From Staphylothermus sp. (lineage in GTDB: Archaea; Thermoproteota; Thermoprotei_A; Sulfolobales; Desulfurococcaceae): 13,050 nucleotides of DNA. The first letter of the stretch is position 1; every line of letters starts with the position of its first letter. A model generated the notes under the pieces. That model was not told the origin of the DNA. It worked only from the letters and a program-made list of their open reading frames with translations, and searched no databases. This document shows, piece after piece, positions 2,988-13,050 of this stretch. A program made the position numbers and the translations under genes. The stretch is taken from NCBI GenBank assembly GCA_021159785.1, contig JAGHDU010000151.1:1-13050 (forward strand), given 5' to 3'.

Positions 2988-3500
2988 TTAAGGGGTGAAA
3001 CCATAGCTGGATTTCACACCACTAGGCGTAGCAAAAACAAGTATTACTGGATGGGTTTGTTCGAGAATGTATGAAGGAGACACAACTATTTCACATATAG
3101 TACCTGGGGGTATTTCAACATATGAGGTATTAGATATATTTATAGTGTAGTTTCCAATGTACAGTTTGACGGGATACCATTTACCATATTCGAGAAGTTC
3201 TAGACGACGTACACCACTTGTATCTATGTAGTCTAGGACTATATCCGACTTATCTCCTATTATTATCGAGTCCATTCCCTCATTGGTTAGGTTAAATACT
3301 ATGATGTTCTTCTCTGATAAATACTTGGCCGAGACTATTTTCAAGACTATGCTTACACGTACAGCTGTATCATCAGATACATATTCAGTTACTTTTGTCA
3401 TATAGTTAAACCAGGCGAAAGAATTATACGTAACAACCATTACTACAAACATAGTCGCAAGGATCATAATAACACTACCAGCAACTGTACCAAAACCCAC
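2988..3500 (-). CDS. Archaellum stator-type protein, ArlF/ArlG family
   Basis: A 170-aa protein with one N-terminal membrane segment (about residues 8-32, GSVIMILATMFVVMVV core) followed by a predicted beta-rich extracytoplasmic domain containing NxT/S sequons (NLT, NYT, NIS, NTS). This is the architecture of ArlF and ArlG, which form a stator complex in the pseudoperiplasm and bind the S-layer. The MGFG start and position just before arlH favour ArlF, but ArlG cannot be excluded. Only one of the usual pair is present here. The GTG start overlaps the last base of the upstream TAG stop (TAGTG), and GGAGGTGG sits 6 nt before it, so translation is coupled to the ArlC/D/E gene. Confidence 0.7.
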   Translation of the reverse strand: MGFGTVAGSVIMILATMFVVMVVTYNSFAWFNYMTKVTEYVSDDTAVRVSIVLKIVSAKYLSEKNIIVFNLTNEGMDSIIIGDKSDIVLDYIDTSGVRRLELLEYGKWYPVKLYIGNYTINISNTSYVEIPPGTICEIVVSPSYILEQTHPVILVFATPSGVKSSYGFTP

Positions 3501-4753
3501 TAACTACCACCTCCTCCGCCAATTATATCGAGTAGCTCCTTAGCCGCCTCGCTTGGAGAAGATGTCTCAGTCTCTTCTTCAACTTCTTTAGTTTCTTCCT
3601 CCATAAGAGTATGTTCTTTCCCATTCTTTTCTTCTTTACTTCCGCCACTAGGTTTAGAACCGTTTACACCAGATAGTAGCTCGCGTAAAAGCTCTACTTG
3701 TTCTTTTGGATCTATATTGATCGTTCTAAGTTCATTCACTATTTCTACTATTTTCTTTAAAGCATTACCCATGTCCTCCTCTATGAGACCAATATCAATG
3801 TAATAATCGATTAACTTACTGAACTTCTCTTGACCAATCCTATTCAGTACATTATTAGCCCAATCTACGAGTTTTTCATATACGTCAATACTCATCTTCT
3901 TCGAAATTCCTCGTATAATCTCTTGCTTTTGAGAAGCTCCAGTATTTTCTCTTTTTTCTTCTCCATCCAAACTAGTTTTTTGCATTGTATCTATACTGTT
4001 GTTATTTTGTGCCATATTCAATACTTGGTTCTGCCGATAATTATTACCCTGTACTGGTACGGGGCTTGGAATAACAATGGGTATTATCTGTGGCATTGTA
4101 GGCTGTGATTGATGTTCTGTTTTCTTGGGTTCATTACTACTTTGTTCTTTTCTCTCCTCTTCACCCCCGAAGAAAATGTCGGCATACTTCCTTAAAATAT
4201 TAAATGGGTTGCTTAACTCAGCCATAGCTGAGCGGAGGTCTATGAGTGTGGCTTTGATACTATCAATGCTTAGCTTAACATATTTCTTTATCTTATCAAT
4301 TTCTGCTTCAAGCGAGTTAATTCTCTCAAGAACCTCATTAGGTACATCAACCCGTACATTTTGATGGGAATTCTCTTCGTTCTCACCCTCTTCCCCTTGT
4401 TCTTGGATACTAAACTCGGATTCGTGGAAGTTGGGTGGGGATTGAGGAACTTGTCCATTTAACATGGGATTTTCTATGGATTGATTAATAGATTGAAGAG
4501 GTTCGGGACCTTCCTGTGGCATCCTTACGACTTTAGCTGGGTATCGTCTAACGATCTCTCTTAGACTCGGATTATTTATTTGTATACTCTCTGCTTCATT
4601 AACCTGTGCACTGGTTATTCCTTCACCAGGTTCCACAATATCTACTCCGACTGAAAACTTGTGTTCTAAATCACTCATCCTAACAACTCTACTTATAACT
4701 GGCTTTACTAAGACTCTACATATTGGGCAGTTGCATGGCCAAATGTCCCTCAA
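3500..4753 (-). CDS. Archaellum switch-complex protein, ArlC/ArlD/E fusion
   Basis: A 417-aa cytoplasmic protein combining two archaellum accessory modules. Residues about 137-190 form a helical/coiled-coil segment like ArlC (FlaC). Residues about 288-345 match the ArlD/E (Arch_fla_DE) domain, with the typical pattern of a helix ending in W and a KLIDYYIDIGLI segment. Between them (about 200-280) is a disordered stretch rich in Q, N, S and P, and the tail (366-417) is acidic and ends in GGGGGS. ArlC/D/E proteins form the cytoplasmic ring that receives CheY signals in Euryarchaeota; Crenarchaeota are generally described as using ArlX instead. The frame opens at a TTG (4753) with GAGGT about 10 nt upstream, giving a short N-terminus with Cys7, Cys9 and Cys12. 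An ATG at 4678 is an alternative start but lacks a ribosome-binding site. Specific subunit naming is uncertain. Confidence 0.8.
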   Translation of the reverse strand: MRDIWPCNCPICRVLVKPVISRVVRMSDLEHKFSVGVDIVEPGEGITSAQVNEAESIQINNPSLREIVRRYPAKVVRMPQEGPEPLQSINQSIENPMLNGQVPQSPPNFHESEFSIQEQGEEGENEENSHQNVRVDVPNEVLERINSLEAEIDKIKKYVKLSIDSIKATLIDLRSAMAELSNPFNILRKYADIFFGGEEERKEQSSNEPKKTEHQSQPTMPQIIPIVIPSPVPVQGNNYRQNQVLNMAQNNNSIDTMQKTSLDGEEKRENTGASQKQEIIRGISKKMSIDVYEKLVDWANNVLNRIGQEKFSKLIDYYIDIGLIEEDMGNALKKIVEIVNELRTINIDPKEQVELLRELLSGVNGSKPSGGSKEEKNGKEHTLMEEETKEVEEETETSSPSEAAKELLDIIGGGGGS

Positions 4754-4947: not shown

Positions 4948-5775
4948 TCACCCTATCTTCTGAAATATTCTAGCATGCTGGTCATAAACCCTAAACATGC
5001 TTCTTACATTTTCTGGCAGGTATTCACTAATACCTAGAACCAGAAACCCGTTTGTATTAAGTGACTTGTAAAGATTCATTACAACGTTTTTCTGAAGTTC
5101 TTTGTTAAAGTATATTAGTACGTTTCTACAGAAAACCATATCCATAAGCATTAATGGTGGATCCTTTATTAAATCGTGCCGCCTGAATTTCACCAATTCC
5201 TTCACAGAATCCTTGATCCTATACTTACCTATGTTTATTTTATCAAAGTATTTATATAGTAGATATTTTGGAACATTCTTTAGTGAAGATTCACCATATA
5301 TTCCCTCCTGTGCTCTCCTTATAGCATCAGCATCTATATCAGTAGCGTATATAGTAACCTTTTTGAATCCACTAATACCACTGATGACTTCTTTGGCAAG
5401 TATAGCTATAGTATATGGTTCTTCTCCTCTGGAACATCCTGCACTCCATATTCTTACAATAGTCTTCCTATTAATGAGGTCTTTCAATATGCTACTAATC
5501 TTCTCCCATACCCATGGATCCCGGAAAAACTCCGAGACATTTATTGAGAGCTCATTAAGTAGCTTATCTACCTCTTGGGGATCGTGTTTTAGGCGTTGTA
5601 AGTACTCCTTATAATCAGTTATACCTAAGGCTAGCATTCTAGCACGTACCCTACGCATCAAGAAATCATTCTTATATCCACTAATGTCCATGCTACCAAA
5701 TCTCTTTATTACGCGTTTGACTTCTTCTGCTAATTGATCCGTTTTTCCACGGATATTCACTTTGAACATTTTCAT
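4948..5775 (-). CDS. cheR: Chemoreceptor glutamate methyltransferase CheR
   Basis: Transfers methyl groups from S-adenosylmethionine to glutamates of chemoreceptors, opposing CheB. The 275-aa length is normal for the family. An N-terminal helical domain (about 10-75) leads into NVSEFFRDP (79-87), then the SAM-binding WSAGCSRGEEPYT at 110-122, the acidic ATDID at 144-148 that contacts the cofactor ribose, and the FCRNVLIYF motif at 215-223. All match active CheR enzymes. I see no C-terminal extension for pentapeptide tethering. The ATG overlaps the CheD stop (TAATG), with GGAGG just upstream, so the two are translationally coupled in a cheC-cheD-cheR unit. No receptor gene is present to show its substrate. 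Confidence 0.95.
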   Translation of the reverse strand: MKMFKVNIRGKTDQLAEEVKRVIKRFGSMDISGYKNDFLMRRVRARMLALGITDYKEYLQRLKHDPQEVDKLLNELSINVSEFFRDPWVWEKISSILKDLINRKTIVRIWSAGCSRGEEPYTIAILAKEVISGISGFKKVTIYATDIDADAIRRAQEGIYGESSLKNVPKYLLYKYFDKINIGKYRIKDSVKELVKFRRHDLIKDPPLMLMDMVFCRNVLIYFNKELQKNVVMNLYKSLNTNGFLVLGISEYLPENVRSMFRVYDQHARIFQKIG

Positions 5776-6284
5776 TAGCCTCCGAAGAGCTTGAACTTAG
5801 GTATTATAACGAATAACCTACCATTAGCAACATCGAAGTATACCGACCTACTATGAGAACCGCCTGTATCTTCTGCTACGAGCTTTATACCATGGGTTTT
5901 AAGCACAGACTTAGCTGTTTCTATGTTTCTCTTACCTATCAACATGGACATAGTTGACTTGAGAATGCTGGCTCCACCAACTACAGAAGCTACAAGCATA
6001 CTTTTTCGTATACCCCTACTCTCTAGTTCCTCCACCGCTTTTGGGATAGCTGAACTAACATACTTATAGGGGTTATCGCTAGAGCTTTTTGGTTCTGGTA
6101 GGAGAGCGTGTATTAGTGCAGCTATTTTTGCATGGGGTTCGTATAGGATTATAGCGACACAGCTGCCCAAGGAGTACGTAGCTAGTATGTGTGGATTTGA
6201 AGCTATTTTACAATCCCCTATGCCAACATTGATCTTGGGCCTTGTCATGTCTGGGTACTTGTTCGTCTTGATAATCTCAATCAT
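5775..6284 (-). CDS. cheD: Chemoreceptor glutamine deamidase CheD
   Basis: Deamidates specific receptor glutamines to glutamate and, in two-protein systems, binds CheC and stimulates its phosphatase activity. In this 169-aa protein the catalytic triad is visible with the spacing of the Thermotoga enzyme: Thr36, Cys42 in LGSCVAI, and His59 in LIHALLP. Further family signatures are VGGAS (102-106), IGKRNIETAK (116-125) and EDTGGSHSRSVYFDV (138-152). The ATG overlaps the cheC stop as ATGA, with GGTGT 6 nt before it. Position directly between cheC and cheR fits its known partnership with both. A second in-frame ATG at residue 13 exists, but the coupling favours the first. Confidence 0.95.
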   Translation of the reverse strand: MIEIIKTNKYPDMTRPKINVGIGDCKIASNPHILATYSLGSCVAIILYEPHAKIAALIHALLPEPKSSSDNPYKYVSSAIPKAVEELESRGIRKSMLVASVVGGASILKSTMSMLIGKRNIETAKSVLKTHGIKLVAEDTGGSHSRSVYFDVANGRLFVIIPKFKLFGG

Positions 6285-6844
6285 ATAGATACACCGAACA
6301 TAATTATCCTTAGCTTAAGCTGTTCAGATGTAGACGAAATACTCATTTCGAGAAGCTCTATTACATCATGCTTAGACGCAATAGGTAGCACAATACTATC
6401 TATCACTGCTGTATCAAGATCTACCACAACTTCTGGAATATCATAATCTATCCTATATCTGTATCCTTTTGAAAAAATAGATGATATATTACCTATTACT
6501 ATGTTTCCAAACTCTCTTAGTATATCTTGAGCGTCTTCATCGCTTGGTTCCAGCTCGATCTTCTGGGCCAATAATTTTACAAGATCTCTTGCTACAGGTA
6601 TATCTAGCAACAATAGCACTTGTCCATCTATATCGCCGCCATATATACTCGATGCTATAGCTACTATTGGTTCATCTCTGCTGTATTTCTCAATTATTTT
6701 GGCAATATCCATAGTTCTTGTTCCAAAAACCTGCACTACTATGTCCGTCTCGGTCAGTGTTTTAAGAGCTTCAGTTATTTTCTCACCCAATAACTTGAGT
6801 AGTGTCGCGTGTTTGTACTCCTCGTTCAATGTGATACTATCCAA
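6281..6844 (-). CDS. cheC: CheY-P phosphatase CheC, apparently single-site
   Basis: CheC/CheX/FliY-family phosphatase that removes phosphate from CheY. Numbered from the TTG at 6844 (187 aa), the second active site is intact: Glu111 and Asn114 in the helix LREFGNIVIGN. The first site, normally LKEIGNIGAGN, is LLKLLGEKITE here, so Leu18 and Glu21 replace the catalytic Glu and Asn. The core GGDIDGQVLLL strand pattern (69-79) is typical. The frame opens at a GTG (6856), but the only ribosome-binding site, GGTGA at 6857-6853, overlaps that codon. It lies 8 nt before the TTG at 6844, which I prefer. It is first in a cheC-cheD-cheR unit and its stop overlaps the cheD ATG. Confidence 0.88.
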   Translation of the reverse strand: MDSITLNEEYKHATLLKLLGEKITEALKTLTETDIVVQVFGTRTMDIAKIIEKYSRDEPIVAIASSIYGGDIDGQVLLLLDIPVARDLVKLLAQKIELEPSDEDAQDILREFGNIVIGNISSIFSKGYRYRIDYDIPEVVVDLDTAVIDSIVLPIASKHDVIELLEMSISSTSEQLKLRIIMFGVSI

Positions 6845-6888
6845 ATTATGTTTCACCTAGATATGTAATTATCAACTACATTACAATC

Positions 6889-7045: not shown

Positions 7046-7480
7046 CTAATATTGAAGAGCTGTCCCTCCAGACACTTTGTTTATTATCTTCTTCAAATCA
7101 ATTATGTTCACTGTCTTGTTCTTTATATTGACTATACCACCCACATGATCTCCTACTTCGTTTGGTGGAGGCGTGATTTCTGATTCATCTACTCTGTAGA
7201 CACCTATTACATCTTCAACTGCAATACCTATGAGCTCGCTATCAAGTGAGATAATTACTGCCTCTCTTAACTCGTTACCTCTACTAGTATTTAGGAATAC
7301 CGAGATATCTAGCAATGGCACTATCTGGCCTCTCAAATTAAACACTCCTAGTATGTAGTCCTGAGCACCGGGGACTTGTGTATAGTTCTTGATTTTTACA
7401 ACTTCTCTAACATCTAGTATGTTTAAACCCCAGTATTGTCCTCCAAGACTAAATACAAGAACCTGCATCTCCTTCGACAC
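7046..7480 (-). CDS. cheW: Chemotaxis coupling protein CheW (copy 1)
   Basis: Scaffold protein that links chemoreceptors to CheA through SH3-like subdomains. The 144-aa product is a plain single-domain CheW: an initial strand (QVLVFSLGGQYWGLNI), the DVREVVK segment, GVFNLRGQIVPLLDIS with the conserved Asn-Leu-Arg-Gly turn, and a closing VNIIDLKKII strand. It starts at a GTG preceded by GGGGTGAG with a 3-nt spacer, 10 bp after the cheA stop. It is therefore co-translated with cheA and is its most likely direct partner. It differs substantially from the second CheW at 12.1-12.6 kb. Confidence 0.94.
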   Translation of the reverse strand: MSKEMQVLVFSLGGQYWGLNILDVREVVKIKNYTQVPGAQDYILGVFNLRGQIVPLLDISVFLNTSRGNELREAVIISLDSELIGIAVEDVIGVYRVDESEITPPPNEVGDHVGGIVNIKNKTVNIIDLKKIINKVSGGTALQY

Positions 7481-7490
7481 ATTCTCACCC

Positions 7491-9668
7491 CTATAATATG
7501 GAAATAGGATCTATTATGAGACAGACTTTTCCATCACCCAGGATAGTGGCACCAGAGAATCCCTTAGCATTAGACAGTAATTTACTCAGAGGTTTCACTA
7601 CTATGTCTTCTTGACCTAAGATCTCATCAACTTGTAAACCAACTAGCTTTCCACGTTTTTCTATAAGTACTATATAACTCTTATCAGTACTCCGTGTGGG
7701 TATACCTAGAATTTCTCCTAGATTGTATACAGTTATTACCTTACTCTGGTACTTGATCACTCCAACACTACCAATCATATTCACACTATCAACCTTCATT
7801 GTTGTTACTACGGCAGATACGGGAATAGCATATAACTGGTCACCTAATTTAATCAGAAGAGCTCTTAGAGTCGCCATGCTAACCGGGATCTTGAAGGTTA
7901 CTCTTGTTTCAGTATCCATCTTACTATATATCTCAAGGGTCCCACCAATTGACTCTACACTGTGCTTTATGCTATCGAACCCAGATAGCTCACCATTCTT
8001 AAGAGAGAACCCTGGAAGAGTAACTAGCATCAACTTCTCCTCATTAGACATTTTCTCTACAGACGATGGTGGAATAAGTCCTAACTCTACTGCACGCTTA
8101 GCTATTTCATCTGGGTCTAGTCCTTTTCCATCAGATTCTACTGTGATTATAACTCTATTACCCTCTCTGAAAGCATGTACTCTTATTGTACCGATCGAGG
8201 CCTTACCTTTTTTAATCCTTGTATCAGAGTCCTCTATATCATCTCTAACTAGTATTTCTACTACTTTGAATAATGGTACAGAGAGCTCCTCCAAGACCTT
8301 TCTATCAAGAGCTATCTCTCCACCCTCATAGTATATATCAACGTCTTTGTTAAACTTCTTGGATAACTCGCTGACTATTCTTGGAAGCCTCCTAAAGATA
8401 TAGTGTAGCGGTACTAAGCGCATTTGCATTATCTCATTCTGTAGCTCGTTGACTAAACGCTCAAAGGTGCTCAATGCTTCCTTTAATGCCTGTATATCAT
8501 ATTGATTCGCAATGGAGATCAATCTGCTTTTTATTAGGACTAACTCACCCACTAGGTTAAAGAGGGCGTCTAAGCTCTTAACATTAACTCTAACCTCTTC
8601 TAGCTTCTTAGCTTCATCCGCCTTGGATTCAGATGGCTTAGCTTGCTCTTCATCTGCTTCCTCGATCTTCTTAAAGATATTCTCAAGCTCGGATAACCTA
8701 TCTACAGGTTCCTGTATCTTCAGCTCGTCCTTATTGACACCAAGGTCTTCCAAGCTAACCTTGTTCACATCATAGCTCGATATATCGTTCAGTTCCTTAA
8801 TGGCATCTTCTAGGTCTCCAAGCTTCTTGACACCTATCAAAACCTTTATAGTGTCGGTAGATTTCTTCGCTATCTCATTGCCGCTTGGTACAGCCTTTAT
8901 TACATCACCTACTTCTCCGAACTTCTGGAGAGCCTGGAAATATCTTATCACCAGTAATGAGGGATCCCTAAACTTAAGAGTGACAACATACAAGCCATAT
9001 TCCTTAGAAATTGCTTCAGCAAGCCTCTGCTTTTCTACATCATTCAATACAAACAACTGAGCATCTTCTATATTCTCTTTTTTATCTTCTAATCCATCAT
9101 GCTTCATATCTCGCTCCTCTTCTACTTTTTCCGATGTTTCACCCTCATCGGAAGAAACTATCTGTTCTCTAAGGAAATCTAGCGCAGAACGAGCCTCGTC
9201 TTCTAGCTTCTTAATATAGCTTTCCACACTTTCTCCTAATACAGTAGATCTCCCAGAAGACTTCTCATTAACACTACCTAATAGTGATTCAAGCTTCTCC
9301 AAAATACTAGTCTTATCTAGCTCTGGCTTCTTATCAGCAGATAGCGCGTTTATGTAAGACGATATAAAGCTTACAACGTCAAATAAAGCAGAAATAATCT
9401 CCTTATTAACCTCCAACTTCTCCTTCCGCACGAGATCTAATAAATCCTCGGTTTTATGAGCAGTCTCAGAAAGGTCTGAAAGCCCTAATACAGCCGCATT
9501 ACCCTTCAAACTATGCATAATTCTAAAGATCTCGTTAATTACTTCCTTGTTCTCAGGCTCCTTTTCTAACTTAGGTAGTAGATAATCTAGTTTATCTAGG
9601 AACTCAGATGCTTCATCAAGAAAAACCTCTAAGAATTCTTTATCAACAAATTTAGAAGAATCAGACAT
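7491..9668 (-). CDS. cheA: Chemotaxis histidine kinase CheA with degenerate ATP-binding domain
   Basis: Core of the signalling array. In this 725-aa protein the order is normal: P1 Hpt (about 1-125, phospho-acceptor His52 in MHSLKGN), a charged linker, a P2-like ferredoxin-fold domain (about 205-308), a second acidic linker, P3 dimerisation helices (about 358-430), P4 (about 445-597) and a CheW-like P5 (about 598-725). P4, however, lacks its ATP-binding residues. Where Thermotoga CheA has HLLRNAIDHG, this has KVVEILVRDD (468-477). The first Asp of the G1 DxGxG is Ser512, and the GRGVG of G2 is deleted after Ser562-Gly563. The frame is uninterrupted and the fold pattern is kept, so this is a pseudokinase-like CheA rather than a broken gene. 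The ATG overlaps the end of cheB by 8 bp, with GGTGA 6 nt upstream. Confidence 0.93.
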   Translation of the reverse strand: MSDSSKFVDKEFLEVFLDEASEFLDKLDYLLPKLEKEPENKEVINEIFRIMHSLKGNAAVLGLSDLSETAHKTEDLLDLVRKEKLEVNKEIISALFDVVSFISSYINALSADKKPELDKTSILEKLESLLGSVNEKSSGRSTVLGESVESYIKKLEDEARSALDFLREQIVSSDEGETSEKVEEERDMKHDGLEDKKENIEDAQLFVLNDVEKQRLAEAISKEYGLYVVTLKFRDPSLLVIRYFQALQKFGEVGDVIKAVPSGNEIAKKSTDTIKVLIGVKKLGDLEDAIKELNDISSYDVNKVSLEDLGVNKDELKIQEPVDRLSELENIFKKIEEADEEQAKPSESKADEAKKLEEVRVNVKSLDALFNLVGELVLIKSRLISIANQYDIQALKEALSTFERLVNELQNEIMQMRLVPLHYIFRRLPRIVSELSKKFNKDVDIYYEGGEIALDRKVLEELSVPLFKVVEILVRDDIEDSDTRIKKGKASIGTIRVHAFREGNRVIITVESDGKGLDPDEIAKRAVELGLIPPSSVEKMSNEEKLMLVTLPGFSLKNGELSGFDSIKHSVESIGGTLEIYSKMDTETRVTFKIPVSMATLRALLIKLGDQLYAIPVSAVVTTMKVDSVNMIGSVGVIKYQSKVITVYNLGEILGIPTRSTDKSYIVLIEKRGKLVGLQVDEILGQEDIVVKPLSKLLSNAKGFSGATILGDGKVCLIIDPISIL

Positions 9669-10758
9669 ATTTAATCACCTCTCCACCCCTTAACCTAAGT
9701 TTATTAACTAAAACACGATTGATTTCATACGCAATAGAATAAAGAGGGAGAACTTTATCAGCACATCCTCTATCAACAACGCATCTAGGCATTCCCCACA
9801 CAATACTAGTCTCTTCATCCTGCGCTATCACATATCCTCCATGTTTCTTAACAAGACAAGCTCCATCTGCTCCATCACATCCCATACCAGTTAAGATTGT
9901 TGCAACAGTGAATTCGCCGAAAACCTCTGCTACAGACTTCAACGTAACATCCGCGGCTGGTCTAACTCCATGGATCTTTGGACCCTTATCTAGTTCTAAT
10001 AGTAGCTTACCACGGCGCGATCTAATAACCATATGGTATCCACCAGGAGCAACATATCCATATCCAGCCAGGACTTCCTCTCCTTCCTCGGCTTCCTTAA
10101 TTCTGATCTCCGAAATAGCGTTCAAACGTTCTGCAAATGTTTTGGTAAAAAGCGGAGGCATGTGCTGTACTATTAAGTATCCAGCGGGTATTCTACCAGA
10201 AACCATTGACATAACTGTCATTAGTGTCTGTGGACCACCAGTTGATGCAGCTAGAACTGCTAGGACCGGAGCAGATAGTTCTTCCCTAGTCTTCTTTTTC
10301 TTTGAAATCCTTTTTAGAGTCAATCTTGTAACGAGTTTAGCTCTCCCTATAGTTGCTAGGATCCTCACTTTTCTAACAAGTTCTTTCTCCAAATCCCCGA
10401 GGTTAAGGACCGTAGGCATACCGCCAGGCTTAGCTACAACCTCGAGAGCACCTGCCTCCAATGCCTCTATTGTGGCTTTTGCTCCTTGTTGGGTAATAGA
10501 GCTAAATACTAGTATGGGTGTAGGTTTTTCAGCCATAATCCTTTTTATTGCAGTAATTCCATCCATTCGGGGCATTACTATATCCATTATTACAACATCA
10601 GGACTTAGCTCGTGTACTAACTTCACAGCTTCTTCTCCGTTCTTCGCCTCTCCAACTACCTTTATCTCAGGGTCTCGTTCAAGGGTCTTCTTTAAAACGC
10701 TCCTCATAAGTCTTGAATCATCAACAACTAGTACGTGAATGGGCCTAGTTCTTACCAA
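9661..10758 (-). CDS. cheB: Chemoreceptor methylesterase/deamidase CheB
   Basis: Removes methyl groups from receptor glutamates when phosphorylated by the CheA pathway. Numbered from the TTG at 10758 (365 aa), the receiver domain has Asp13-Asp14, phospho-acceptor Asp59 (VVIMDIVMP) and Lys110. A lysine-rich linker (about 138-163) follows. The esterase domain carries the Ser172 (AASTGGP), His199 (QHMPP) and Asp295 (TGMGCDG) triad, so it looks fully active. The frame opens at a TTG at 10767, but GAGGGTGG directly abuts that codon. A start three codons later, at 10758, gives a 9-nt spacer and is preferred. The gene overlaps the end of cheY and the start of cheA. Confidence 0.95.
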   Translation of the reverse strand: MVRTRPIHVLVVDDSRLMRSVLKKTLERDPEIKVVGEAKNGEEAVKLVHELSPDVVIMDIVMPRMDGITAIKRIMAEKPTPILVFSSITQQGAKATIEALEAGALEVVAKPGGMPTVLNLGDLEKELVRKVRILATIGRAKLVTRLTLKRISKKKKTREELSAPVLAVLAASTGGPQTLMTVMSMVSGRIPAGYLIVQHMPPLFTKTFAERLNAISEIRIKEAEEGEEVLAGYGYVAPGGYHMVIRSRRGKLLLELDKGPKIHGVRPAADVTLKSVAEVFGEFTVATILTGMGCDGADGACLVKKHGGYVIAQDEETSIVWGMPRCVVDRGCADKVLPLYSIAYEINRVLVNKLRLRGGEVIKYV

Positions 10759-11119
10759 TACTCTCAACCACCCTCACTATCTTGTCGGGCGTAAATGGCT
10801 TTGTTATGAAGTCTACTATTCCAATAGACTTTGCATACTTGATCACCTCGTCTTGACCAAGCGCCGAGACTATTACGATCCTGACATCTTTTTCAGTATT
10901 CCGTATAGCCTTCAACGCATTTAATCCATCCATTTCTGGCATGTTTATATCAATAAATACTAGGTCTGGGACTTCTTTCATGCTCTTCATGATTTCTATT
11001 AACTCTCTACCATTACTTGCCTCAGCTACTACATTATGTCCCATTCTCTCCACTATACGCCTAATGAAAGTTCTCATAAACTTCGAGTCATCGGCTACCA
11101 CGATGTTAAGCTTCTTCAC
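10745..11119 (-). CDS. cheY: Chemotaxis response regulator CheY
   Basis: Single-domain receiver that carries the phosphoryl signal from the array to the archaellum switch. The 124-aa length is standard. The acidic pair Asp10-Asp11 (VVADDS), phospho-acceptor Asp57 (LVFIDINMP), Ser85 at the usual Thr/Ser switch position (VIVSALG) and Lys107 (FITKPFTP) are all present. The GTG start has GGAGGTG 6 nt upstream, and the end overlaps the start region of cheB. In Euryarchaeota CheY acts on ArlC/D through CheF; no CheF is in this window, but an ArlC/D/E protein is. Confidence 0.95.
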   Translation of the reverse strand: MKKLNIVVADDSKFMRTFIRRIVERMGHNVVAEASNGRELIEIMKSMKEVPDLVFIDINMPEMDGLNALKAIRNTEKDVRIVIVSALGQDEVIKYAKSIGIVDFITKPFTPDKIVRVVESIGKN

Positions 11120-11135
11120 TCAAAACACCTCCACT

Positions 11136-11897
11136 CTAGCCTATGTTGTTTATAATGAATTCAACAACTTCCTTAATCCTCAGCGTATATGGGTGCTTAG
11201 GATGCTTTAATATAAACACACCTCTACTCCTATGCTGTAGTATTTCTGGATAAAACGGAACTACACCAATAACTGGTATCCCCAATAACTTACTAACCTC
11301 TGACCGTAACTCAACGGCTTTAGCCATATTTGGTGGAACCATATTTAGGACAACATAGCTAGTCTTGTTAAACTTTCTGAGCACCTGCGCCGTTACATAT
11401 GTACCAGTTATATCCTGTTTATCCATTCTCATCATCATTATAGATACATCACTGGATAATACAGCCAACAATGTATCTTCATTGAGACCAGGATGGGTGT
11501 CAAAGATCACAAAGTCTACTCCATAGGCTTCACCCAGCTGTCTCGTAACCTCCTTAAAGAATTGCTCGGAATACCCCTCTTTCAAAAGCTTAGCTATCTC
11601 TTCCGGCTTCATACTGGCACCTAAAAAGTATATCTTCCCCTTAGGCAATCCTAGCTGGTTCGTCAAGTCTATTACAACGTCTTCTAGAGCAGCTCTACCA
11701 AATACATAATCATTCAATGTTACCTTCATTATAGACTGTGATACTTGGTATATAACGTGCAATCCTGGGCTTGTTAAGTCGAGATCAACTGTTGCAACTT
11801 TTTTATCATACAGAGCCAACATTACAGCTAGATTAGCCGTAGTTGTAGATTTCCCCGTTCCACCTCTATAGGAGTGTATAGCTATGCCTACGACCAA
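11136..11897 (-). CDS. ParA/MinD-family ATPase, probable positioning protein
   Basis: A 253-aa P-loop ATPase of the ParA/MinD superfamily. The deviant Walker A is YRGGTGKST (10-18), with catalytic Lys16 but Arg11 where MinD/ParA usually have the signature lysine. The A' box VDLDLTSPG (37-45) and the switch II/Walker B region FVIFDTHPG (129-137) follow. The C-terminus lacks the amphipathic membrane helix typical of MinD. ParA/MinD ATPases encoded in chemotaxis operons position arrays in several bacteria, and MinD4 affects placement of arrays and archaella in Haloferax; a similar role here is inference. It starts at a TTG with GGAGGTGG 6 nt upstream and lies 16 bp after the 70-aa coiled-coil gene, a candidate partner. 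A general regulatory ATPase cannot be excluded. Confidence 0.85.
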   Translation of the reverse strand: MVVGIAIHSYRGGTGKSTTTANLAVMLALYDKKVATVDLDLTSPGLHVIYQVSQSIMKVTLNDYVFGRAALEDVVIDLTNQLGLPKGKIYFLGASMKPEEIAKLLKEGYSEQFFKEVTRQLGEAYGVDFVIFDTHPGLNEDTLLAVLSSDVSIMMMRMDKQDITGTYVTAQVLRKFNKTSYVVLNMVPPNMAKAVELRSEVSKLLGIPVIGVVPFYPEILQHRSRGVFILKHPKHPYTLRIKEVVEFIINNIG

Positions 11898-11913: not shown

Positions 11914-12126
11914 CTATTCGAGGAGCTCCTCCAACTTCTTCAACCTATTCTCGAGATCATCCAGTCTATCGAGTATTTCTTCCAGCCTCTTCTCGAAGGA
12001 AGAAACCTTCTTCTCTACTTCGTCAATATTTGTCTGCGTTGAGAGAAGAGTATCACTTATTTTCTTACGCAACTCCTGTGTTCTAGAATCTTGAGTACGT
12101 GTGAAATAATGCTTTTTCGGAGCCAT
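11914..12126 (-). CDS. Small coiled-coil protein with basic N-terminus
   Basis: A 70-residue protein with a positively charged N-terminus (MAPKKHYFTRTQDSR) followed by a helical region. From about residue 33 to the end it is a strongly predicted coiled coil with regular leucine/isoleucine heptads (for example LEEILDRLDDLENRLKKLEE). I do not recognise a named family. It begins at an ATG with GGTGG 4 nt upstream, 8 bp after the cheW2 stop and 16 bp before the ParA-type gene. A short basic tail joined to an oligomerising helix resembles proteins that stimulate ParA-type ATPases, so it may be the adaptor between the ATPase and the array. That is inference from context and composition only. Confidence 0.8.
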   Translation of the reverse strand: MAPKKHYFTRTQDSRTQELRKKISDTLLSTQTNIDEVEKKVSSFEKRLEEILDRLDDLENRLKKLEELLE

Positions 12127-12134
12127 TCTCCCAC

Positions 12135-12602
12135 CTACATATCCATATTTATTTCAGATCCTATGAGCTCGAGAATCTTTCTAGCATCTAAGATAAGGAT
12201 CAATTTATCTTGATGCCTGATGACCCTATCAACTACTTCGCTTGGAACAGTGTTCTTCTCGGACTCTACACTATTGGCTCTAAGCACACCAAGGACATGA
12301 TCTACTATTAGACCTGTCTCAGTCTTTTGTTCCCCGACATTAATGCTACCAGTATTCATGATAAGCACTTTCCGCTTATTCGTAGAGCTGCCCTCTTCTA
12401 TGTTGAGAATCCGAGAGAGATTAACCAAGGTAATTAATTTACCTCTTAGATCCATTATGCCCTCTACATAGTATGGAGCCTTCGGTAGCTTGGTTATCTT
12501 CTTCGGCTCAACTACTTCTCTCACATACTGAATGTTTATGCCATATATGTTCTCGCCTAGCTTGAATATAATGTACTGCTCTTCTCCAACCTTACTTGTC
12601 AT
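12135..12602 (-). CDS. cheW: Chemotaxis coupling protein CheW (copy 2)
   Basis: A second single-domain CheW, 155 aa from the ATG at 12602. Visible signatures are the first strand EEQYIIFKLGENIYGINI, YVREVVEPKKITKLPKAP, the GIMDLRGKLITLVNL turn and the closing LILILDARKI strand. A GTG three codons earlier is also in frame, but GGAGGTGG lies 5 nt before the ATG, which therefore decides the start. Its beginning overlaps the end of the upstream 75-aa gene by 11 bp. Its sequence differs clearly from cheW1 (for example DLRG against NLRG), so it is not a recent duplicate. The two may couple different receptors or occupy different positions in the array. Confidence 0.94.
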   Translation of the reverse strand: MTSKVGEEQYIIFKLGENIYGINIQYVREVVEPKKITKLPKAPYYVEGIMDLRGKLITLVNLSRILNIEEGSSTNKRKVLIMNTGSINVGEQKTETGLIVDHVLGVLRANSVESEKNTVPSEVVDRVIRHQDKLILILDARKILELIGSEINMDM

Positions 12603-12819
12603 GGGGACCACCTCCTTTTGCTTCTCTCTCTAATTCGTCAAGTAACCTTGCTAACTCTTCGAGATGAGATATAGCTCTTTCAGCTAGTACCTCTGCATGT
12701 TCTATCTCCTCGTTCCTCACGGCTAGTACAGCTTGGCTAATGAAAGCCTTAACGTGTCTAATGATCTGGCGGGCTTGTTTCAGCGAATCTATTATGTAAA
12801 GCTTTTTCTCGTACTGCAT
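12592..12819 (-). CDS. Small helical protein of unknown function, first gene of the che unit
   Basis: A 75-residue protein that appears almost entirely alpha-helical: one helix about 5-34 and a second, Glu/Leu-rich one about 37-67. It ends in GGGPHDK. There is no signal peptide, membrane segment or metal motif. I do not recognise the family. A GGTGA lies about 10 nt before the ATG. The terminal glycines are encoded by the ribosome-binding site of cheW2, which overlaps its 3' end, so the two are translated together. Its place at the head of the che unit suggests a chemotaxis role such as an adaptor or small regulator, but nothing in the sequence defines one. It is far too short to be CheF. Confidence 0.7.
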   Translation of the reverse strand: MQYEKKLYIIDSLKQARQIIRHVKAFISQAVLAVRNEEIEHAEVLAERAISHLEELARLLDELEREAKGGGPHDK

Positions 12820-12960: not shown

Positions 12961-13050
12961 TATTTAAGAAGATAAAAAGAATAGCCGATAATCTACTGCT
13001 AATCGAACTAGTTAATATAACTTTATGATTAAAAATATAACATATAGTAT

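Follow-up and report, generated by a model that had tools for sequence, protein, structure and literature searches.

A crenarchaeal CheA without most ATP-site motifs as the probable phosphoryl-accepting half of a split kinase

Background

The division of a CheA kinase between two proteins has been described in Rhodobacter (Cereibacter) sphaeroides, where CheA3 carries P1 and P5 together with a non-functional HATPase_c domain and CheA4 comprises P3, P4 and P5, lacks P1 and provides working catalysis (PMC3591291, PMC10782961). A survey of 13,673 CheAs reports HATPase_c in each of them, presents the CheA3/CheA4 pair as a unique case of partitioning and describes CheA3 as having no domain identifiable between P1 and P5 by ordinary search and as missing a helix of P4 (PMC10782961). 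The biochemistry of the pair is the subject of a second paper, which cites 11 split versus 470 complete CheAs (PMC3591291). The genes encoding CheA3 and CheA4 lie in a shared operon.

In E. coli a short form of CheA arises from an alternative start, and trans-complementation between a kinase-dead and a His-less CheA is known from laboratory mutants. Pseudo-histidine kinases such as Caulobacter DivL, in which the HATPase fold has been repurposed, belong to a family other than CheA.

Crenarchaeota are said to lack chemotaxis and ArlCDE (PMC8978795) and two-component systems (PMC5300886), and the components of chemotaxis are placed mainly in Euryarchaeota, TACK and Asgard (PMC9680633). Among the titles and abstract openings listed from the openly licensed PubMed Central literature, none describes a split CheA or a pseudokinase CheA in archaea.

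The DNA analyzed here (the window, 13,050 nucleotides) is the whole of contig C214 of an archaeal metagenome-assembled genome (1.29 Mb in 257 contigs, 70% complete). Our reading, to which we assign a probability of roughly 0.83, is that its CheA provides the phosphoryl-accepting half of a kinase divided between two proteins.

Results

All genes considered here lie on the minus strand and are arranged, from low to high coordinates, as ArlI, ArlH, a short protein, an ArlD/E-like protein, CheR, CheD, CheX, CheW, CheA, CheB, CheY, a ParA/MinD-like ATPase, a coiled coil, CheW and a helical protein (Table 1). From family and gene order we take the T2SSE gene to be ArlI and the KaiC-like gene to be ArlH; the short protein in the FlaF/FlaG place has no Pfam match. 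The same cluster is present in Desulfurococcales archaeon S139_91 (WAML01000188) and Thermoprotei archaeon AUK086 (JAGGUY010000026). Loci L012 (from AUK086), L014 and L076 also contain the ParA-like and coiled-coil genes, and the 75-aa gene has a counterpart in L012. Despite the presence of the che operon, CheF was found in none of six genomes (G000, G004, G014, G062, G149 and G153; 55-93% complete); the control search detects it in 3 of 14, each of them archaeal. In the ArlI of AUK086 (L012:16066-19230) a large segment, intein-like by reading, is inserted in frame near residue 409, and ArlI matches broken at or near this residue within long frames suggest the same insert in eight more genomes (G049, G059, G018, G006, G037, G057, G044 and G060); G014 has two ArlI copies, on C117 and C8, which are 93% and 90% identical to that of the window.

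Table 1. Features of the window and the basis for each assignment
Feature	Position	Strand	Basis
ArlD/E (FlaD/E)-like protein, PF04659	3500..4753	-	23.5 bits, cut-off 21
CheR	4948..5775	-	Pfam
CheD	5775..6284	-	Pfam
CheX-like phosphatase	6281..6856	-	Pfam 38.3 bits, cut-off 27
CheW, second copy	7046..7480	-	Pfam
Pseudokinase CheA, 725 aa, P1-P2-P3-pseudoP4-P5	7491..9668	-	Open frame, phmmer, Pfam
P5 (CheW-like) domain	7494..7877	-	Pfam CheW, 92 bits
Pseudo-P4 (about residues 418-597), HATPase_c fold lacking most nucleotide motifs	7878..8417	-	phmmer, Pfam, model
Former GxGT region, SKMDTETRV (582-590), Thr588 retained	7899..7925	-	Alignment
Former G2/ATP lid, G553..G563, shortened	7980..8012	-	Alignment
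Former G1, S512-D-G-K-G516	8121..8135	-	Alignment
Former N-box, K468..D477, in place of H, N, D, H, G	8238..8267	-	Alignment
P3 dimerisation domain, residues about 357-417	8418..8600	-	Pfam H-kinase_dim 54.6 bits
P2 response-regulator docking domain, residues about 225-305	8754..8996	-	Pfam 25.1 bits, cut-off 23
P1 (Hpt) domain, residues about 10-117; His52 codon 9513-9515	9318..9641	-	Pfam, Hpt 55.2 bits
CheB (receiver and methylesterase)	9661..10767	-	Pfam
CheY	10745..11119	-	Pfam
ParA/MinD-like ATPase within che cluster	11136..11897	-	Pfam
Small coiled coil	11914..12126	-	Recurs in L012, L014 and L076
CheW, first copy	12135..12611	-	Pfam
Helical protein of 75 aa; lies between cheW and where relatives have the divergent short cheA	12592..12819	-	Counterpart in L012
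Contig end, aligned to relative L009 up to base 2771	13031..13050	+	DNA alignment

On the evidence of its sequence the che cluster is taken as crenarchaeal. The window ArlI is 65% identical to the ArlI of other families of the order, and the deoC on the corresponding contig of the relative G004 is 75-76% identical to that of two same-family genomes. The tetranucleotide correlation between window and bin is 0.83, with 0.41-0.81 for 11 readable, mostly shorter contigs; this fit is a weak test, since G004's contig reaches 0.79 and the GC content of the window (0.397) is above the 0.33-0.39 of the bin contigs. Against the published absence of both, this crenarchaeal genome has a complete che operon as well as a protein resembling ArlD/E (3500-4753).

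The reading frame of the window CheA is uninterrupted across 725 codons and its Pfam domains follow in the CheA order P1, P3, P4, P5, each above its cut-off, which bears out the claim of an earlier note on this DNA that the frame, P1 with His52, P3, P5 and the overall P4 pattern are intact. The P1 residues H52, K55, G56 and E74 are unchanged in all 21 aligned homologs, and His52 and Glu74 are present in 23 of the 23 proteins that we call pseudo-CheAs.

We used the solved T. maritima CheA (1b3q), which phmmer matches to residues 358-721 at 267 bits, as the reference for the ATP site. The gapless N-box pairing sets LLHLLRNAIDHGIE opposite LFKVVEILVRDDIE, with K468, I472, R475, D476 and D477 in place of H, N, D, H and G. 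In G1, VEDDGRGID of T. maritima is opposite VESDGKGLD: only the first Asp is replaced (S512), and D513, G514 and G516 are retained. In both boxes the alignment gives the replacements that the earlier note had named. The G2 loop, which that note considered deleted, has indeed lost the central Gly of its motif, but the stretch is six residues shorter (16 versus 22 in T. maritima) rather than entirely absent and its final Gly, G563, is present; the GxGT, also said to be deleted, is in fact substituted, at D585-T-E587-T588, in both Gly and retains its Thr. The statement that every ATP-binding motif has been lost is a slight overstatement: D513, G514, G516 and Thr588 remain. The Pfam HATPase_c profile matches residues 486-596 (31.5 bits, cut-off 26.4) from its position 19 onward and reveals no second set of ATP boxes elsewhere in the protein; intact boxes at another place are what the earlier note had named as refuting its claim. 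The window CheA does not have the N, G1 and G2 nucleotide boxes expected of a CheA P4.

The alignment used to follow these changes contains 358 distinct CheA-like proteins: 23 pseudo-CheAs, 9 short CheAs (see below) and 326 others. The 326 are the best matches listed plus fetched loci, with identical rows removed, and are not a random sample; at least three of them (L024, L026, L028) are truncated versions of L019, L014 and L013. The 23 include the near-copies L004 (of P0008) and L012 (of P0010) and the close P0002-P0006, and among the 9 one protein is counted two times (as P0127 and as a longer L012 reading) and the pair P0122/P0123 is 99% identical. All five N-box residues and the central lid Gly are gone in 23 of 23 pseudo-CheAs, the earlier note having proposed a search for its N-box substitutions in relatives, while among the matches listed the N-box Asn and the G1 Asp are kept in 326 of 326 other CheAs and the lid GxG in 325, the exception being L033 of G468. 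The first N-box His has become K in 13 pseudo-CheAs, T in 6, R in 2 and N or S in 1 each; the G1 Asp position holds Ser in 20 and has retained Asp in 3. New conserved residues occupy the old N-box (Asp476 in 23/23; Arg475 in 22/23, with K in 1), and Thr588 is kept in 21/23. Because it is shared by 23 of 23 homologs, we judge from the alignment that the motif loss is more than chance or sequencing error would give.

Domain identities were computed on 11 pseudo-CheAs, 8 intact CheAs and 6 short CheAs. The mean pairwise identity of the pseudo-CheAs is 0.417 for P1, 0.735 for P3, the most conserved domain, 0.647 for pseudo-P4 and 0.603 for P5, and the corresponding value for P4 in the eight intact relatives is 0.665. 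The closeness of the two P4 values indicates that the gene is being maintained and is not decaying; there are no stops within the pseudo-CheA matches in genomes G000, G004 and G062. An AlphaFold2 model of the pseudo-CheA, built with 44 sequences, has a mean pLDDT of 78.7 and a pTM of 0.50 over the whole flexible chain, with block pLDDT values of 72-94 across pseudo-P4; only the lid and an additional short helix set its helices and strands apart from those modeled for the short CheA P4. The top-ranking Foldseek matches are CheA structures, and P4-only CheA chains reach a TM of 0.87-0.95 of the target. As modeled, the pseudo-P4 fold is retained without most of the nucleotide motifs.

Three relatives (L008, L009 and L012) encode a short CheA that consists of P3-P4-P5 only, without P1 and with intact ATP motifs, its gene being divergent and upstream of the cheW of the operon; N, G1 and G2 are intact in all nine short CheAs. 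Pseudo- and short cheA are on one contig in G004 (L008) and AUK086 (L012), where the distance between the divergent genes is about 3.4 and 3.2 kb, respectively, and P0006 (pseudo, 88% to the window CheA) and P0124 (short) are both listed from an 18,085-base contig, a putative linkage by size match. A partner on the same contig was read for two pseudo-CheAs only (L008 and L012), to which the one size match may be added; the remaining pseudo-CheAs are database proteins for which no partner was identified in word-limited searches that may miss one. The G014 contig contains a short cheA and ends within cheB, and the pseudo-CheA of G014 was not found in its genome. An MCP gene (Pfam) follows the short cheA in L008, as MCP-like genes do, by reading, in L009 and L012. 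The identity between pseudo- and short CheA in P3 is 18-26%.

The HATPase_c profile gives three matches each in G004 (93% complete, 7% contaminated) and G062 (59% complete): the short CheA at 72 and 81 bits, the pseudo-CheA at 27 and 36.5 bits, and a protein of 600 and 545 aa, presumed to be topoisomerase VI B like its counterpart in the window genome. In four clade genomes of the six examined it finds the CheAs and one topoisomerase-sized protein each, and nothing further.

A second CheA, which the earlier note had suggested looking for, is found in relatives as the short CheA beside the operon; in the window's own bin (70% complete) no second CheA or other kinase was found, HATPase_c matching only CheA and topoisomerase VI B (687 bits) and a short-CheA profile only the pseudo-CheA, and no MCP was found there either. 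The DNA upstream of the first cheW is 78% identical to L009 over 464 columns, reaching the last base of the contig, which ends 11 bases before a GTG (2783) and 20 bases before a TTG (2792) that are possible short cheA starts in L009. An ATG that opens eight codons close to the contig end was considered as a short cheA start and dropped, as the L009 alignment puts this stretch upstream of the start. Because a che operon without receptors is implausible and short cheA and MCP adjoin in relatives, one missing contig may simply explain the absence of both from the bin.

Within the class, CheA matches are confined to 7 of the 229 genomes, and the same-genus genomes G001 and G002 contain none. An even sample of the phylum (398 genomes) gave 58 with a CheA-profile match, some weak and partial, and the 29 further loci that were read for P4 motifs include no other pseudo-CheA, so the trait looks narrow. 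Two trees were built, one of 93 sequences (six near-duplicates dropped; 35 other database proteins kept, seven named and 28 random) and one of 48, a hand-picked subset. The pseudo and the short clade are each supported at 100/99 in the large tree, and in the small tree a branch (100/99.5) separates the pseudo-CheAs, the short CheAs and related Thermoproteota CheAs from the rest. A single clade of pseudo and short CheAs is not rejected (p-AU 0.31), the short clade being long-branched. The pair may go back to one archaeal CheA whose core was duplicated, with complementary parts lost afterwards, an origin that the trees allow but the long branches make uncertain.

The intact CheAs of other Thermoproteota (G149 B82_G16 and G153; L013, L014 and L076) extend from P1 to P5 like the window CheA, and L014 and L076 have its gene order ParA-CheY-CheB-CheA; they differ from it in that the N, G1 and G2 boxes are whole and there is no short copy on their contigs. 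This includes G153 and the outgroup G149 (55% complete), which share the gene order and have intact, full-length CheAs. L031 and L033 are sister to the pseudo clade at 93/88 in the large tree, and the small tree, with L031 only, gives no resolution there. In the CheA of G534 the N-box differs at a single residue, the first His, which is Ser, and the CheA of G468, a possible sister lineage (85% complete), has a partly broken P4 (the same His to Ser, Asp to Lys, lid lost), with no short CheA found. At L073 (G468:C44), by reading, the P1 motif is changed, the CheY acidic pair is altered and CheB has no recognisable receiver; judged from these sequences, the chemotaxis system of G468 looks decayed.

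Discussion

The relatives have linked, separate genes for an acceptor half and a donor half. In the mechanism that we propose, the P4 of the short CheA would bind ATP and phosphorylate His52 of the pseudo-CheA in trans, either in a mixed dimer or between neighboring dimers held by CheW and receptor; the low P3 identity of the two CheAs does not favor mixed dimers. With P2 as docking site, the pseudo-CheA would then hand the phosphate on to CheY and CheB, CheX would remove it, and both CheAs would be coupled to receptor and CheW through their P5s. The arrangement recalls the E. coli short form and mutants, in which a protomer without P1 gives its P4 to a protomer that gives P1, except that here two genes are used.

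The likeness to CheA3/CheA4 is one of domain make-up; in the trees the pseudo clade groups with Thermoproteota CheAs. The window CheA, like CheA3, is a P1-bearing partner whose HATPase_c lacks the ATP residues, and the short CheA of the relatives corresponds to CheA4, its catalysis being predicted; the genes are close in both systems, although those of the relatives are divergent rather than in one operon. Unlike CheA3, the window CheA has recognizable P3 (54.6 bits) and P4 (31.5 bits) domains, the P4 elements of the short CheA model are also modeled in it, and the degraded P3 of CheA3 is absent, P3 being above the Pfam cut-off and highly conserved. Our best reading of the sequences is a split kinase that works like CheA3/CheA4 but is crenarchaeal, has a P3 that is not degraded and keeps its pseudo-P4 well.

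A more specific role for pseudo-P4, which we regard as possible but doubtful, is that of an allosteric partner, and not of a leftover, in an obligate mixed array. Its remade N-box pair R475-D476 would touch the catalytically active P4 of the short CheA or act on it as a switch, in the way that other pseudokinases activate partner proteins. If true, crenarchaea would have a two-gene kinase under receptor control that evolved independently of the Rhodobacter system.

The earlier note had proposed a pseudokinase selected for a non-catalytic role as scaffold, phosphotransfer hub or substrate of another kinase. Such selection is consistent with the conservation in 23 homologs, the P4 identities and the invariant His52 and Glu74, and a P1-less CheA with intact motifs, linked in relatives, fits the substrate option; we favor substrate and hub of a split kinase together and disfavor scaffold alone. 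A pseudo-CheA that serves mainly as scaffold and as a sink or phosphatase for CheY-P, with CheY charged by small phosphodonors or an unrelated kinase, would account for the conserved P3, P5 and P4 fold and the lost ATP motifs; we consider it unlikely, as a mere scaffold has no need of His52 and Glu74 in 23 of 23 proteins and the profile search of four clade genomes found nothing beyond CheAs and a topoisomerase-sized protein in each. Autophosphorylation by a pseudo-P4 that still binds ATP or another nucleotide through new contacts could draw on G514, G516, Thr588, the retained fold, the conserved R475 and D476 and the G1 Asp of three proteins, but we hold it to be very improbable given that the N-box, the lid and both GxGT Gly are lost together and that relatives encode an intact P4 close by. 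Gene decay in a lineage on its way to losing chemotaxis, or an artefact of assembly or binning, might be suspected from the rarity of CheA in the class, its absence from G001 and G002 and the altered system of G468, and has the slightest chance of all in view of a pseudo-P4 nearly as conserved as intact P4s, matches free of internal stops, the deoC identity on G004's contig and, as a weak test, the tetranucleotide correlation.

Conclusions

The split-kinase reading, if true, would provide an archaeal case of a split CheA in a lineage said to be without chemotaxis. Because its pseudo-P4 is so well kept, the system would separate by nature what P4 contributes to receptor arrays structurally from what it contributes catalytically, and the proteins, which come from thermophile-related archaea, would allow this separation to be tested.
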